Assembly (NCBI RefSeq): GCF_016862775.1 | Contig: NZ_BONP01000003.1 | Coordinates: 186,001-250,000 of the forward strand | DNA: 64,000 nt | From: Cellulomonas phragmiteti | Lineage (GTDB): Bacteria; Actinomycetota; Actinomycetes; Actinomycetales; Cellulomonadaceae | Reading direction: 5' to 3' | Shown: positions 26,838 to 37,974 of the stretch, piece after piece | Numbering within the stretch: the first letter of the stretch is position 1 | Layout of the letters: every line of letters begins with the position of its first letter | Translations under genes and position numbers: made by a program | The notes under the pieces: model-generated | The model's input: only the letters and a program-made list of their open reading frames with translations | Database searches by the model: none | Told to the model about the DNA's origin: nothing

Positions 26838-27506
26838 TCAGGGCGCGTGCAGCAGACGCGGCCGGGCAGGGTCGGCGTGGTCGATCACCAGGTCGGCACG
26901 CTCCGTGGGCGAGCACGCCGCGAGATAGAGCAGCTGGCCCTCGCGGCAGCGGGCGTTCGCCGGGTCGAGCGGGTCCGGCGGGCAGCCGTCGCGCTCGGCC
27001 ATCCGCGCGAACGTCACCTCGGCGGGCACGTCGAGCCACACCGAGAGGTCCCACACGTCGGCCAGCTCGTCACGGTGCAGGAAGATGCCGTCGACGAGCA
27101 GCACCGTCGCGTCCTCGACGTCGACCCACGGGGTGCCGGGGTCGGCGTCCGTCGTGAGGTCGTGCACGGCCGTGCGCACGCGCCGGGGCCGCTCGGACCC
27201 CGGGGCCAGGGGATCGAGCAGCACCCGGTGGAACGCGTCGAGGTCGTAGGAGTCGAGGAAGAAGCCCTCGGGGCTCGTGCGTCCGCGGCGGTACCGCTCG
27301 ACCGCGGGCCGGTGGAAGCCGTCGACCGACGCGCGCAGCACACGCTGCCCGCGTGCCCGCAGCACGCCCGCCAGCTCGTCGGCGAGCGTCGTCTTGCCCG
27401 CACCGTCCACCCCGTCGACCGCGACCCGCACGGGCCTGCCGAGCCTGCGCGGGTCGGGGACGGCGGCGGCGACCTGCGCCAGGACGCGGTCCCGCTGGTC
27501 GCTCAC
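26838..27506 (-). CDS. Uridine-kinase-like P-loop kinase
   Basis: 222 residues with Walker A VDGVDGAGKTTLADELA near residue 33, the lid and substrate segments SVDGFHRPAVERYRRG, GFFLDSYDLDAF, the Walker B-like VLLVDGIFLHRDEL, and LSVWLDVPAEVTFARMAERD. These match actinobacterial uridine kinase-like proteins of the PRK/UDK group. The substrate may be uridine or another small hydroxyl compound; the FHRP and GIFLHR motifs fit uridine-type kinases. Its GTG start overlaps the M1 peptidase stop by 4 bases, so it is the third gene of the synthetase operon, a surprising partner. Confidence 0.82.
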   Translation of the reverse strand: MSDQRDRVLAQVAAAVPDPRRLGRPVRVAVDGVDGAGKTTLADELAGVLRARGQRVLRASVDGFHRPAVERYRRGRTSPEGFFLDSYDLDAFHRVLLDPLAPGSERPRRVRTAVHDLTTDADPGTPWVDVEDATVLLVDGIFLHRDELADVWDLSVWLDVPAEVTFARMAERDGCPPDPLDPANARCREGQLLYLAACSPTERADLVIDHADPARPRLLHAP

Positions 27507-28834
27507 GCGGGCCACGCGGGGAGCCGTGCGGCGAGCCACCGCCGGACCAGCGCGTCGACGGGCCTGCCGGCGACGGACGAGGCGCACGCGACGAACGCGG
27601 CCGTGTCGACCGTGGAGTGCCGGTGCGTGACGGCCCACGTGCGCAGCAGCCGCGCGAAGGCCTCCTCGCCAAGGTCGAGCCGCAGCGCGTGCAGCACCAG
27701 GGCGCCACGCTGGTAGACCCGGTCGTCGAACATCCGGTCCGGGCCGGGGTCGGCGACGTCGATGTCCTGCGGCAGCCGGGCGTGCCGCGCGTGCGAGGCC
27801 CGGGCCAGCGTGTCGGCGTCCTGCCCGCCCGAGGCCGCGGACCACAGCCACTCGGCGTAGCACGCGAACCCCTCGTGCAGCCAGATGTCGCGCCAGGTGC
27901 CCACGGTCAGGCTGTTGCCGAACCACTGGTGCGCGAGCTCGTGCGCGACGAGCCGCTCCCAGGTGCCGCGCCCGTCGACGTGGTTGGCGCCGAACGTCGA
28001 CATCGCCTGCGCCTCGAGCGGCACCTCGAGGTCGTCGGCGGTGACGACGACCGCGTACTCGGCGAACGGGTACGGCCCGAAGAGCTCGGTGAACAGCGTC
28101 ATCATCTGCGGCTGACGCGCCAGGTCCGCGCGCGCCCGCGCCACCAGGGGGCGCGGCACGTACGCGCGCTGCACCACGGGACCGCCCGCCAGCAGGAGCT
28201 CGTCGTACCGGCCGACCTGCACCGCCGCGAGGTAGGGCGCGGTCGGCTCGGGCTGCTCGTACACCCACCGCACGCGCCCGGCGCGCGCGGTCCGCTGCGT
28301 CCGCACGCCGTTGGCGACCACGGTGTACGGGGCCTCGGCGCTCACCGCGACCCGGAACGCGGCCTTGTCGCCCGGGCTGTCGTGGCAGGGGAACCACGAC
28401 GGGGCGCCGTCGGGCTGCCCGGCGACGATGACGCCGTCGGTCAGCTCCTCCCAGCCCACGTCGCCCCAGCGCCCGACGAGCGGCCGCGGCTGCCCCTGGT
28501 ACGCGACCCGCACCGTGAACGACGCCCCCGCGGGCAGCGCGGACGCGAGGCGCACCGTGAGGTGCCGCGGCTGCTGCCGCCAGCGTGCCGGTCGTGCGCC
28601 GTCGACGCGCACGTCGCCCACCCGGAGCCCGGTGAGCTCGAGCCGGACCTCCTCGAGCGGGCGCGTCGTCGTGGCCGCGACCTCGGCGACGCCGTCGAGG
28701 CGGTTGGTCGCGACCCGGTAGTCCAGGTCGAGGTCGTACGACTGCACCGTGAAGCCGGGGTCGGGCCGCCCCGGCAGGTACGGGTCGGCGTCGTCGGTCG
28801 CGGGACGCTCGCGGGACGGGCGCAACCCGCTCAT
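27503..28834 (-). CDS. M1 family zinc metallopeptidase
   Basis: 443 residues. Zinc site HELAHQWFGN (His298, Glu299, His302) with the third ligand Glu321 in LHEGFACYAEW. The usual GAMEN exopeptidase motif is replaced by LEAQAMSTFGAN (residues 273-284). Residues 25-220 form the beta-sheet N-terminal domain (VQSYDLDLDYRV, GWEELTDGVIVAGQPDG). It lacks the long C-terminal helical domain of full aminopeptidase N, as in short actinobacterial M1 enzymes. No signal peptide is seen. It overlaps the Pls-type synthetase by 4 bases, suggesting a role in trimming, releasing or detoxifying that peptide product. Confidence 0.9.
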   Translation of the reverse strand: MSGLRPSRERPATDDADPYLPGRPDPGFTVQSYDLDLDYRVATNRLDGVAEVAATTTRPLEEVRLELTGLRVGDVRVDGARPARWRQQPRHLTVRLASALPAGASFTVRVAYQGQPRPLVGRWGDVGWEELTDGVIVAGQPDGAPSWFPCHDSPGDKAAFRVAVSAEAPYTVVANGVRTQRTARAGRVRWVYEQPEPTAPYLAAVQVGRYDELLLAGGPVVQRAYVPRPLVARARADLARQPQMMTLFTELFGPYPFAEYAVVVTADDLEVPLEAQAMSTFGANHVDGRGTWERLVAHELAHQWFGNSLTVGTWRDIWLHEGFACYAEWLWSAASGGQDADTLARASHARHARLPQDIDVADPGPDRMFDDRVYQRGALVLHALRLDLGEEAFARLLRTWAVTHRHSTVDTAAFVACASSVAGRPVDALVRRWLAARLPAWPA

Positions 28835-31800
28835 GCGGGGGCGATGGGGTTGCCCGCCCAGCGCGACCCGGCGGGCACGGCGTCGCCGCGCAGCACCAGC
28901 GACGACGCGCCGACGCTCGCCCCGTCTCCGAGGTGCGCCGCCGGCAGCACCACCCCGTGGGGCCCGAGGCTGGCGCCCGCGCCGATCCGCACCGTGTCGA
29001 GGCTCATGACACGATCATGGAACAGGTGCGTCTGGAGCACACAACCGCGGTTCACCGTGGCGCCGTCCCCGACGTGCACCAGGTCGGCCTCCGGCAGCCA
29101 GTACGTCTCCAGCCACGCCCCGCGCCCGATGCGCGCGCCCAGGGCGCGCAGCCACCAGGTCAGGGCGGGTGAGCCGAGCGTCGCCGGGCCCAGCCAGGGC
29201 ACGGCCAGGACCTCGGCGAACGCGTCGGCCAGCTCGTTGCGCCAGACGAACGAGCTCCACAGCGGGTGCTCGCCCGCGCGGATGCGCCCGACGAGCGCCC
29301 ACTTGGCGACGACGGCGGCCCCGCACGCGAGCACGGCGGCACCCAGCACCGCGACGGGGGACGCGAGCGCGGCGACGAGCACGCCGTGCGTGCCGAGCAC
29401 GTGGGTCAGCGTGAGCAGCATCCCGACCGCGAGGGCGAACGACAGGACGACGGGGACGAGACGGCACACCTCGACGAGCGCCCGCGCGACCCGCAGCCGC
29501 GCGGGAGGCGCGTACGTGCGCTCGTCGGGGGCGTCGCCGGTGACCCGCCGCAGGCGCTGCGGCGGCGAGCCCAGCCACGACGTGCCCTTCTTGGCACGCT
29601 CGGGCGTCGCGGACAGCACGGCGACGAGGCCGCGCGCCGGCACCGCACGCCCGGGCGCGATCATGCCGGAGTTGCCGAGGAAGGCGCGCTTGCCGATGCT
29701 CGCGGGCTCGACGCGCAGGTACCCGCCGCCCAGCTCGTACGAGCCGATGAGGGTGTCGTCGGCGAGGAACGCGCCGTCGCCGATGCGCGTCATCGACGGC
29801 AGCAGCAGCACGGTCGAGGCCTCGACGTCGCGGCCGACCCGGGCACCCAGGGCACGCAGCCACGCGGGTGTCGCGCTGCTCGCGTACAGCGGGTACAGCT
29901 GGGTGCGGGCGTCGTCCATGAGCCGCAGCGTGGCCCACGCGCGCCAGCCGCTCGCCGAGCGGACGGGGTAGGCCCCGGGCTCGAGCCCCGTGGCGAGCAG
30001 CCGTGCCGCGGCCCACGTGGTGGTCAGCAGGACCAGCGCGGACGCGAGGGCGCCGACGGGCAGCACGGGCAGCGCCGCGACGGCGGCCGCGACCACGTCG
30101 GGTGCCCCGCGGGTGGCGCCCGCGACGACCGCGAGGCCGGTCGCGAGCGCGGCCAGCGGCAGGGACGCCAGCAGCGCGGCGCTCGCGCCGTAGACCGGGA
30201 TCCAGCGTCGGCCGCGCGGCGGGCGCTGCCGGGGCCAGCGCTTGCGCGCGGGTCCCTCGAAGACGGCGGGCGAGCCGGCCCACAGCTCGCCGGGGGGCAC
30301 CGACCCGGTGACGACGGTGCCGGGTGCGACCTCGGCGCCCTGGCCCACGCGGCTGCCGGGCCCCAGCGTGCTGCGGGTGCCGACCGTGGCGCGCTTGTCG
30401 ACGCGGACGCGGCCCACCTGCAGGACGTCCCCGTCGAGCCAGTGGCCCGACAGGTCGACCTCCGGCTCGATCGCGCACCGGTCCCCGAGGACCAGGTGGC
30501 CCGTGACGGGCGGCAGCGCGTGCAGGTCGACGCCCGCGCCCACGCGGGCACCGAGCGCGCGGGCGTACACCGCGTTCCACGGGGCGCACGACAGGTTGCC
30601 CGCGCCTGCCGCGACGGCCCACGACTCGGCGAACCACAGCCGCAGGTGCACCCCGCCGCCGCGCGGGTAGCGGCCGGGGGTGACGCCGCGCAGCAGCGTG
30701 CGCGCGACCAGCACGGTCGACCCCATGCGTCCCAGCGGGCTGACCAGCAGCACCCAGCCGGCGGCGAACCACCACGCCGCCCCGGGCACGGGCGGTGCCC
30801 ACGCGACGCCGGCGGCCGCGAGCGCGGCGTCGGCCCCCAGGGCCCACGTGACCCAGCGCAGCCCGACGAGCACCGCCAGCGGCAGCCCGAGCAGGACCTG
30901 CACGGCCCGGGCCCGCGCGGGCGTGGGGGCCGGCACGTGCGCGTCCTGCACGGGCGCGGGCGTGAGCTCGTCGAGCCGGCGCGCCAGGGCGCCGAGCCGC
31001 GGGTGCTCGTAGACGTCGGCCACCGTCGCGGTCGGGTAGCGGGCGCGCAGCGCGGACACGAGCTGCGCCGCGGCCAGGCTGCCGCCCCCGGCGGCGAAGA
31101 AGTCGTCGTCGGGGCCCTGGACCGCCGTGCCCAGGGCCGCGGTCCAGCACCCGGCCACCCACTCCTGCGTCGGGTCGAGGTCCGCCGCGGGCCCGGGGTC
31201 GGCGCCGGGTGCGCCGACGAGCGGCCAGGGCAGGGCGTCGCGGTCGACCTTGCCCGACCCGCGGGTGGGGATCTCCTCGACCACGGCGAGGAGGGGCACG
31301 AGCGCGGCGGGCAGCACGTCGCGCAGCGCGGACCGCGCCGCGTCGAGGTCGACCTGCGCGCCGGGCAGGGCGGCGAGGTAGCCGACGAGCACGGACGTGC
31401 CGGCCGGTGTGCGTCGGACGGCGGCCGCGGCGGCACCCACGCCGGGCAGCGCACCCAGGGCGGCGTCGACCTCGCCCAGCTCGATGCGCCGGCCGCCGAT
31501 CTTCACCTGGTCGTCCGCCCGCCCGACGAACACGAGCCCGGCGTGCTCGTACCGCACGAGGTCGCCGCTGCGGTACGCGCGCTCCCAGCCGAGGCCCGGC
31601 GCCGGGGCGAAGCGCTCGGCGTCGCGCGCCTCGTCGAGGTAGCGCGCGAGCCCGACGCCGCCGATCACGAGCTCGCCGGTCCCGCCCTCGTCCACGGGGG
31701 CGCCGTCGGGGCCGACCACGGCCAGGTCCCAGCCGTCGAGCGCGTGGCCGATGCGCACCGGGCCGGTGCCGTCGAGCAGGGCCGCGCACGCGACGACGGT

Positions 31801-32694
31801 CGCCTCGGTGGGCCCGTACGTGTTCCACACCTCGCGCCCGGGGGTCGCGAGGCGGGCGACCAGCTCCGGGGGGCAGGCCTCGCCGCCGAAGATCAGGAGC
31901 CGGACGCCGTCGAGCTGGTCGGCGGACCACAGCCCGGCCAGCGTGGGGACGGTCGAGATGACGCTGATGCGCTGGGCGACCAACCACGGTCCGAGGTCCA
32001 TGCCGGTGCGCACGAGCGCGCGCGGCGCGGGCACGAGGCACGCGCCGTGCCGCCACGCCAGCCACATCTCCTCGCAGGACGCGTCGAACGCGACGGACAG
32101 GCCGGCGAGGACCCGGTCGCCGGGGCCCAGCGGCGCGTCCTGCAGGAAGACCCGGGCCTCGGCGTCGACGAACGCCGCCGCGGACCGGTGCCGGACCGCG
32201 ACGCCCTTGGGGACGCCCGTCGAGCCGGAGGTGAAGATGATCCAGGCGTCGTCCTGCGGCTCGGGGGGCGGGGGAGCGGGCACGCTCGTGGCGGCCGCCC
32301 GGCGCCGGTCGTCGGGCTCGGCCGCGAGGTCACCCTCCCCGAGCACCCGCACGACGCCGGCCTCCCGGAACACGGTGCGGGCGCGCTCCTCGGGGTCGTC
32401 CACGTCGACCGGGACGTAGGCGGCGCCCGCCGCGAGGACCGCGAGGATCGCCGTGTAGAGCTCGGTGGTGCCCGAGGGCACGTGGATGCCGACGCGGTCA
32501 CCGCGCCGCACGCCCTGCGCGGCGAGGCGCGCGGCCCCCTCGCGGACGTGGACGGCCAGCTCGGCGTACGTGAGGACGGTGCGGCCGTCGTCCAGGGCGG
32601 GGGCGTCCGGGTGCGCGGCGACGGTCGCGTCGAGGACGTCCAGCAGGGTGCGCGGCGGCGGAGCGAGGTCGCCGCGCAGGTAGGGCGAGGTCAC
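28831..32694 (-). CDS. Pls/PosA-type nonribosomal peptide synthetase (poly-amino-acid synthetase)
   Basis: 1287 residues in a single module: adenylation domain (residues 15-490; FTSGSTGVPKG, FDASCEEM, NTYGPTEAT, YRSGDLVRYE, GRADDQVKIGGRRIE, GSGKVDRDAL), carrier domain with the phosphopantetheine Ser539 in DFFAAGGGSL, then a membrane region of about six helices interleaved with three hexapeptide-repeat, LbH-like domains (for example AIGxxG-type repeats around CAIEPEVDLSG, IGDGAFLADDTLIG, VHVGDGATVNRG). This is the epsilon-poly-L-lysine synthetase architecture, which has no condensation or thioesterase domain and joins monomers on the membrane. Specificity residues aligned by eye to PheA are D204 A205 E208 S247 I268 G270 T292 V300 V301 K482, close to the remembered lysine code of bacitracin synthetase. 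GTG at 32694 is chosen from the conserved start. Confidence 0.9.
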   Translation of the reverse strand: MTSPYLRGDLAPPPRTLLDVLDATVAAHPDAPALDDGRTVLTYAELAVHVREGAARLAAQGVRRGDRVGIHVPSGTTELYTAILAVLAAGAAYVPVDVDDPEERARTVFREAGVVRVLGEGDLAAEPDDRRRAAATSVPAPPPPEPQDDAWIIFTSGSTGVPKGVAVRHRSAAAFVDAEARVFLQDAPLGPGDRVLAGLSVAFDASCEEMWLAWRHGACLVPAPRALVRTGMDLGPWLVAQRISVISTVPTLAGLWSADQLDGVRLLIFGGEACPPELVARLATPGREVWNTYGPTEATVVACAALLDGTGPVRIGHALDGWDLAVVGPDGAPVDEGGTGELVIGGVGLARYLDEARDAERFAPAPGLGWERAYRSGDLVRYEHAGLVFVGRADDQVKIGGRRIELGEVDAALGALPGVGAAAAAVRRTPAGTSVLVGYLAALPGAQVDLDAARSALRDVLPAALVPLLAVVEEIPTRGSGKVDRDALPWPLVGAPGADPGPAADLDPTQEWVAGCWTAALGTAVQGPDDDFFAAGGGSLAAAQLVSALRARYPTATVADVYEHPRLGALARRLDELTPAPVQDAHVPAPTPARARAVQVLLGLPLAVLVGLRWVTWALGADAALAAAGVAWAPPVPGAAWWFAAGWVLLVSPLGRMGSTVLVARTLLRGVTPGRYPRGGGVHLRLWFAESWAVAAGAGNLSCAPWNAVYARALGARVGAGVDLHALPPVTGHLVLGDRCAIEPEVDLSGHWLDGDVLQVGRVRVDKRATVGTRSTLGPGSRVGQGAEVAPGTVVTGSVPPGELWAGSPAVFEGPARKRWPRQRPPRGRRWIPVYGASAALLASLPLAALATGLAVVAGATRGAPDVVAAAVAALPVLPVGALASALVLLTTTWAAARLLATGLEPGAYPVRSASGWRAWATLRLMDDARTQLYPLYASSATPAWLRALGARVGRDVEASTVLLLPSMTRIGDGAFLADDTLIGSYELGGGYLRVEPASIGKRAFLGNSGMIAPGRAVPARGLVAVLSATPERAKKGTSWLGSPPQRLRRVTGDAPDERTYAPPARLRVARALVEVCRLVPVVLSFALAVGMLLTLTHVLGTHGVLVAALASPVAVLGAAVLACGAAVVAKWALVGRIRAGEHPLWSSFVWRNELADAFAEVLAVPWLGPATLGSPALTWWLRALGARIGRGAWLETYWLPEADLVHVGDGATVNRGCVLQTHLFHDRVMSLDTVRIGAGASLGPHGVVLPAAHLGDGASVGASSLVLRGDAVPAGSRWAGNPIAPA

Positions 32695-32918: not shown

Positions 32919-34100
32919 GTGGACCTGTTCGAGTACCAGGCACGTGACATCTTCGAGAAGCACGGCGTGCCCGTGCTCGGCGGCATCGTCGCCACGACGC
33001 CACAGGAGGCCCGCGCGGCAGCCGAGCAGCTGCTCCCGCCCGAGGGCGGCGTCGTCGTCGTCAAGGCGCAGGTCAAGACCGGTGGCCGCGGCAAGGCCGG
33101 GGGCGTCAAGCTGGCACGCTCGGCCGACGAGGCCGCCGCGACGGCGGGCGAGATCCTCGGCATGGACATCAAGGGCCACACGGTGCACCGCGTGATGGTC
33201 GCGGCCGGCGCCAAGATCGCCCAGGAGTTCTACTTCTCGCTCCTGCTGGACCGCGCCGAGCGTCGCTACCTGGCGATGGCCTCGGTCGAGGGCGGCGTGG
33301 AGATCGAGCAGCTCGCGGTCGAGCGTCCCGAGGCGCTCGCCAAGGTCGCGGTCGACCCGCGCACGGGCATCGACCAGGCGACGGCGGACGAGATCGTCGC
33401 GGCCGCGGGCTTCGCCCCGGAGATCGCGGGCCAGGTCGCCGACGTCCTGCAGAAGCTGTGGCGCGTGTACGACGAGGAGGACGCCACGCTGGTCGAGGTC
33501 AACCCGCTCGTCCTCACGGAGGACGGCCAGGTCGTCGCCCTCGACGGCAAGGTCACCCTCGACGCCAACGCGGACTTCCGGCACCCGGACCACGCGGCCC
33601 TCGAGGACGCGGCCGCCGCGGACCCGCTGGAGGCGCGCGCCAAGGAGAAGGACCTCAACTACGTCAAGCTCGACGGCGAGGTCGGCATCATCGGCAACGG
33701 CGCGGGCCTCGTCATGAGCACCCTCGACGTGGTCGCGTACGCCGGTGAGGCGCACGGCGGGGTGCGGCCCGCCAACTTCCTCGACATCGGCGGCGGCGCC
33801 TCGGCCGAGGTGATGGCCGCCGGCCTCGACATCATCCTCACGGACCCGCAGGTGAAGTCCGTGTTCGTCAACGTGTTCGGTGGGATCACGGCCTGCGACG
33901 CCGTGGCCAACGGCATCGTCGCCGCCCTGCAGATCCTCGGGGACGAGGCGTCGAAGCCCCTCGTCGTGCGGCTCGACGGCAACAACGTCGTCGAGGGCCG
34001 GCGCATCCTCGCCGAGGCCGGGCACCCGCTCGTCACGCTCGCCGACACGATGGACGGCGGCGCCGACACGGCTGCCCGCCTGGCGCACGCCGCCGCCTGA
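32919..34100 (+). CDS. sucC: Succinyl-CoA synthetase beta subunit (ADP/GDP-forming)
   Basis: 393 residues. Starts with the invariant [19 protein letters not shown]. The ATP-grasp domain includes [21 protein letters not shown], and the C-terminal CoA-ligase half contains [19 protein letters not shown] and [16 protein letters not shown]. With SucD it interconverts succinyl-CoA and succinate with substrate-level phosphorylation in the TCA cycle. GTG at 32919 has GAGAGGA upstream. sucD follows after 31 bases in the same transcript. Confidence 0.96.
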
Positions 34101-37837: not shown

Positions 37838-37974
37838 CGGCCGCGGTCGTGACTGGCGCAGGTGGAGGACCACCGGGGAGCGACCGCGCACACCCCCTGC
37901 CGTGCACCGCCCGCCTGGGTGCCGGGGTCCACCGAGGTCCGCCCGGACCACCGACCGACCCAGGAAGGCGCGCC

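Follow-up and report, generated by a model that had tools for sequence, protein, structure and literature searches.

A probable epsilon-poly-L-lysine synthetase gene and its overlapping M1 peptidase partner in Cellulomonas phragmiteti

The gene pair described here, at positions 27503 to 32694 of a 64,000-nucleotide stretch of Cellulomonas phragmiteti DNA (the window), is very probably a pls-pldII operon whose product would be epsilon-poly-lysine, an antimicrobial polymer. Its first gene encodes a Pls/PosA-type synthetase with a substrate code identical to that of a solved epsilon-poly-lysine synthase, and its second gene, which overlaps the first by 4 nt, encodes a compact M1 metallopeptidase whose homologues occur in exactly those Cellulomonas genomes that carry pls. 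From these sequence features we predict that the two genes are co-transcribed and expressed, and that the polymer is exported. The peptidase did not figure in an earlier sequence-only reading of the synthetase; it is half of the system, and it argues for a poly-lysine product independently of the synthetase. We thus regard the Cellulomonas pls as a well-supported new example of a described system, to which our analysis adds the peptidase partner. The scientific surprise is small, since the family and its actinobacterial spread have already been published (PMC8117764, PMC10522769). Nevertheless, Cellulomonas, a genus known for cellulose breakdown, joins the likely carriers of the epsilon-poly-lysine pathway, the constancy of the synthetase/peptidase gene overlap within the genus is now visible, and the homologous enzymes of the genus could be of practical use, the polymer being a food preservative.

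The synthetase and its substrate code

The pls gene lies on the minus strand at 28831..32694, opens with a GTG codon and encodes 1287 residues, which bears out the open reading frame first delineated from the letters of the sequence. An alternative upstream start at 33003 is also open in frame, and the longer form would run into sucC, which starts at 32919 on the opposite strand; the alignments of 27 full-length same-genus relatives begin at residues 1 to 8 of the shorter, 1287-residue form. To 22 of these 27 homologues the window protein is 71 to 75% identical, with four more at 59 to 69% and one at 90%, and the C-terminal part is only 49.3% identical to that of a Streptomyces Pls from a plasmid (L193). 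Residues 598-1284 score 676.6 bits with the NCBIfam model TIGR02353 ("Pls/PosA family non-ribosomal peptide synthetase"), the curated cut-off of which is 423.1 bits, and the assignment to the Pls/PosA type made in the sequence-only reading stands: by its sequence, the product of 28831-32694 is a synthetase of this family. The composition of one adenylation and one carrier domain given in that reading likewise agrees with Pfam, which finds a single AMP-binding domain (residues 22-351, 9.1e-62), a single PP-binding domain (PF00550, residues 511-574, 7.3e-11) and hexapeptide repeats (6.3e-10), and neither a condensation nor a thioesterase domain at E ≤ 0.001. Elsewhere in the genome, the condensation family PF00668 has five matches, all on contigs other than the one with pls, and the phosphopantetheinyl transferase family PF01648 has two matches above cut-off.

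The adenylation domain (31213..32664, minus strand; residues 11-494) was delimited by its phmmer match to PDB 7WEW, "Epsilon-poly-L-lysine synthase," the adenylation domain of the Streptomyces albulus enzyme. This is the closest solved sequence (E 4.4e-190), with 67.6% identity across 476 aligned positions in a comparison limited to the adenylation domain. Alignment to 7WEW places the specificity code at residues 204, 205, 208, 247, 268, 270, 292, 300, 301 and 482, where the window enzyme reads DAESIGTVVK and 7WEW reads the same ten residues letter for letter. We take these ten positions to be those of PheA numbering, located through the core motifs. The same code had been obtained by eye against PheA, and the alignment with a characterized Pls leaves every one of its residues unchanged; the poly-lysine product that had been called plausible on that basis is now better supported, while still a prediction. 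Because identity with the code of an epsilon-poly-lysine synthase is the stronger evidence, the earlier comparison with bacitracin synthetase is not needed.

The code recurs throughout the relatives. DAESIGTVVK is present in 26 of the 27 same-genus relatives in which it is readable (a count that leaves out L066 and L067, whose pls is cut by contig ends, and L068, whose pls is in pieces), in 79 of 80 named relatives, these being the best 80 of 595, in all 36 full-length homologues drawn across the phylum and in both plasmid copies fetched from the 19 plasmid records matched. The deviating form is DAESVGTVVK, with Val for Ile at position 5, found in L065 and L079, which are identical rows in the Pls tree. 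Code position 2 has been described as following side-chain length, with Phe in diaminopropionate and diaminobutyrate enzymes, Met in ornithine enzymes and Ala in lysine enzymes, and Glu at position 3 as binding the side-chain amine (PMC10522769). The window enzyme has Ala at position 2 and Glu at position 3. Downstream of the adenylation domain, the carrier (T) domain (30973..31164, minus strand; residues 511-574, PF00550) contains the motif GGGSL with Ser539, and the motif serine is kept in all six of the commonest motif forms (23 of 29 rows).

The remainder of the protein is the C-terminal polymerization region (28843..30903, minus strand; residues 598-1284), in which TIGR02353, hydropathy, AlphaFold2 and PDB matches together indicate paired membrane helices and three left-handed beta-helix domains, C1, C2 and C3. 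An AlphaFold2 model of residues 585-1287, computed from the window and 40 named relatives (taken from the best 80 of 595), has a mean pLDDT of 86.2 and a pTM of 0.88 and consists of three repeats, each made of a pair of long helices and then a beta-rich block. The helix pairs fall at model residues 9-43/55-83, 247-277/283-317 and 495-519/521-551. In a Foldseek search, left-handed beta-helix acyltransferases, serine acetyltransferases among them, made up most of the top PDB matches of the model; the query-normalized TM-scores of the 23 matches at E ≤ 0.001 were only 0.08 to 0.15, values that would fit a match to one beta-helix out of three. The three helix-pair/beta-block repeats and their acyltransferase folds sustain the earlier description of a membrane region interleaved with three hexapeptide-repeat domains, and the model is in line with the account published of an AlphaFold model of PosA, in the portion of it consulted (PMC10522769). 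In the modeled protein, six membrane helices are interleaved with the three tandem beta-helix domains, membrane insertion itself being a prediction; by hydropathy, the second segment of the region lies below the threshold used. A catalytic site in this half of the protein was sought through conserved positions. Forty-two positions are common to all 22 rows of an alignment of the window protein, 14 full-length relatives and seven divergent relatives (23-27% identity), among them R685, W687, D979, N1008, E1154, H1223 and D1227. Across 147 rows R685 and H1223 are not invariant, and we claim no mechanism from the 42 positions.

The partner peptidase

Directly after pls lies a gene for a pldII-like compact M1 metallopeptidase of 443 residues (27503..28834, minus strand; PF01433, 3.9e-26; PF17900, 4e-12), the nearest solved relatives of which are the 474-residue zinc metalloproteases 6a8z and 6iff. 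Sequence and alignment place its zinc-binding motif, HELAH, at residues 298-302 (27929..27943, minus strand). In the window protein the full HEXXH-18-E pattern was recognized by eye; a script found it in all 138 partner genes of relatives. The stop codon of pls and the start codon of the peptidase share the 4-nt sequence ATGA (28831..28834, minus strand), an overlap that makes translational coupling of the two genes likely. At the same place, -4 when counted from the end of pls, an ATG or GTG is available in 29 of the 30 same-genus relatives fetched. In the remaining one (L068) pls is broken, so that all 29 assessable loci have such a start.

The two genes also travel together from genome to genome. 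Among 60 Cellulomonas species genomes drawn, a recognizable pls is present in 31, of which 30 have a match above cut-off and one (G039) has, among the matches listed, two sub-cut-off pieces. An M1 homologue at 53% identity or higher is present in exactly the same 31. The other 29 comprise one genome (G004) with only a 30% M1 match and 28 with none at E ≤ 1e-30. In this count, the sub-cut-off TIGR02353 matches among those listed were taken as unrelated hexapeptide proteins, with the exception of both G039 pieces and one second piece each in G035 and G050, which were read as parts of split pls genes. Across the phylum, TIGR02353 matched at E ≤ 1e-100 in 39 of 396 genomes drawn; of the 46 match rows, all but the window's own and the partial G067:C14 (44 rows) were fetched, and the full-length count leaves aside seven loci too short for an A-T-C protein as well as L163, in which the queries used gave no match. 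Beyond the genus, the M1 gene lies within 150 nt of pls at 33 of the resulting 36 phylum loci and at 75 of 80 named loci, which as the best 80 of 595 are biased toward close relatives and share species with the other sets. A start that overlaps pls by no more than 40 nt is available in 27 of these 33 phylum loci and 64 of these 75 named loci (best 80 of 595). An M1 gene also follows the gene annotated "epsilon-poly-L-lysine synthase Pls" in Streptomyces sp. NBC_01454, and the two overlap by 4 nt. Not every pls is paired in this way, since some close homologues are without an adjacent peptidase: the fetched stretch around pls contains no M1 gene in L174, L192 or L194 (the Rhodococcus opacus plasmid copy), and the M1 gene is 358 nt from pls in L181 and 603 to 2172 nt away in five named loci (best 80 of 595).

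The place where the peptidase would act is less evident than its association with pls. The window protein begins with a 32-residue hydrophilic extension in which the mean hydropathy over 12 residues is nowhere above -0.4, and no signal peptide is recognizable in it by N-terminal hydropathy, a crude test. A scan of 137 partner peptidases of relatives (one more has no anchor motif, and internal starts were picked in some rows) found that eight have, ahead of the domain, a 12-residue stretch with a mean hydropathy of at least 1.2, and by eye only the plasmid copy L193 has a true-looking signal sequence. By contrast, S. albulus PldII is said to be located outside the membrane (PMC9223678), so the window peptidase may either be exported by another route or act inside the cell. 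We consider it possible, but doubtful, that the coupled peptidase is cytosolic and clears poly-lysine that fails to exit, the pair then being a producer and safety-valve unit that many actinobacteria retain, whether they secrete the polymer or not; the gene overlap with the synthetase and the lack of a recognizable signal peptide in nearly all pairs examined point in this direction. According to the consulted part of a review, inactivation of Pld and PldII left polymer production and chain length in Streptomyces unaffected (PMC8506220), and the role of the peptidase is thus only putative.

The likely product and its alternatives

The pathway that we propose is modeled on the S. albulus enzymes. 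The A domain would activate L-lysine to lysyl-AMP, as is suggested by a code identical to that of the solved epsilon-poly-lysine synthase, and Ser539 of the phosphopantetheinylated T domain would carry the lysine as a thioester, as family members are known to do. Next, the C1-C3 beta-helix assembly, embedded in the membrane, would link lysines iteratively, alpha-carboxyl to epsilon-amino, without a condensation or thioesterase domain, and the polymer would be released at the membrane; both joining and release are known in outline for S. albulus Pls. The presumably co-translated M1 peptidase would cut epsilon-poly-lysine, probably protecting the cell, a substrate and a protective role that we infer from PldII. 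Beyond the code, the window protein resembles S. albulus Pls in its A-T architecture, its three tandem beta-helix domains, its membrane helices and the peptidase gene downstream, S. albulus pldII being reported as translationally coupled (PMC9223678). The two systems differ in that the S. albulus product is known, whereas the window's is predicted. The peptidase is likened to PldII, an epsilon-poly-lysine-degrading aminopeptidase, by description, as the product of an aminopeptidase-type gene that comes directly after pls and has a coupled start; unlike S. albulus PldII, with its reported location outside the membrane, it has no recognizable signal peptide and its substrate is a presumed one. 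The likeness to Corynebacterium variabile, also by description, is that of a pls in a non-filamentous actinobacterium followed by a peptidase gene. In that organism the two form an operon and the synthetase has been shown to make epsilon-poly-lysine (PMC8117764), a demonstrated product that sets it apart from the predicted one of the window.

Family and code together make epsilon-poly-lysine the most likely product of the Cellulomonas enzyme. Synthetases of the same overall architecture make other cationic homopolymers (PMC10522769, PMC4668381): delta-poly-ornithine, poly-diaminobutyrate, poly-diaminopropionate and epsilon-poly-beta-lysine. The code makes any of these products very unlikely: it is identical to that of the lysine enzyme, and its second position is Ala, neither the Met of PosA nor the Phe of the diaminopropionate and diaminobutyrate enzymes. 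PosA of Acinetobacter baumannii, the delta-poly-L-ornithine synthetase (PDB 8G95-8G98), belongs to the same synthetase family and has the same C-terminal region, but besides Met at code position 2 it differs from the window system in being encoded by a single-gene operon (PMC10522769). The code of the window enzyme also differs from the beta-lysine code, DGESISVVNK (PMC10522769), and the peptidase context is that of pls, whereas a different one is described for a diaminopropionate and two diaminobutyrate synthetases (PMC8117764).

Slimmer still is the chance that the enzyme activates lysine but delivers, in place of a free polymer, another end product such as a lysine isopeptide bound to a lipid or to a surface polymer. 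A C-terminal half that is predicted to be membrane-embedded and acyltransferase-like would suit such a role, as would the conservation of Pls homologues in many actinobacterial genera (among the named matches listed, at least 595) and the observation that native C. variabile has no detectable free polymer (PMC8117764). The C. variabile homologue nevertheless gave free epsilon-poly-lysine of 26 to 35 residues when placed in S. coelicolor (PMC8117764), which favors epsilon-poly-lysine as the product of the Cellulomonas enzyme as well. In C. variabile itself the Pls protein, like the polymer, went undetected according to the part of that study consulted (PMC8117764), and the Cellulomonas pls may thus be silent too. 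A search of titles and abstract openings found no report of epsilon-poly-lysine from Cellulomonas, and the consulted portion of one Cellulomonas genome paper does not mention polylysine (PMC8194134).

Genomic setting of the pair

In a tree of 77 Pls rows, made by a quick method with SH-aLRT support only, the window protein groups with the G044 copy (90% identity) inside a main Cellulomonas clade with SH-aLRT values of 97 (17 rows) and 100 (19 rows). The same-genus rows L062 and L063 are placed outside this clade, and long branches make the deep positions of L192 and L193 unreliable. When the window is compared with the same-genus loci L039-L068, only it and G044 (L061) have pcrA and sucC on either side of the pls-peptidase pair (27503-32694). 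Neither pcrA nor sucC was found in the fetched flanks, of a few kilobases, of the other 29 same-genus pls loci, and the upstream flank of L039 is common to 20 of the 29 loci compared, at 82% identity or higher. This distribution suggests that the two genes have changed place together on at least one occasion within Cellulomonas. The genes around it in the window (pcrA, sucC, sucD-like and purH-like) are housekeeping genes and hint at no function for the pair. An open reading frame for a kinase-like protein (PRK/uridine-kinase-like; 26838-27506, minus strand; PF00485, 2.6e-6), the GTG of which overlaps the peptidase stop, was considered as a third gene of the operon. It was dropped because none of the other pls loci searched, including the nearest, L061 (G044), has a homologue in its fetched stretch by tblastn at E ≤ 1e-10.

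Several further observations concern the wider family and the window. Seven loci of large-genome actinobacteria (L149, L160, L161, L162, L164, L173 and L187) encode divergent Pls-like proteins with 23 to 27% identity to the C-terminal part of the window protein; their open frames are too short for A-T-C, by eye some have a carrier-like start, and their fetched stretches contain no M1 match. Pls homologues also occur in 19 records of a plasmid collection (including NC_012520.1 and NZ_CP023152.1), Rhodococcus, Mycobacterium and Streptomyces being among the hosts, and the copy on the Rhodococcus opacus B4 plasmid has no adjacent M1 gene. In the window itself, a ZMP/ZTP riboswitch (RF01750, 50 bits) lies at 37839-37927 on the plus strand, near the start of the purH-like gene (AICARFT/IMPCHase).
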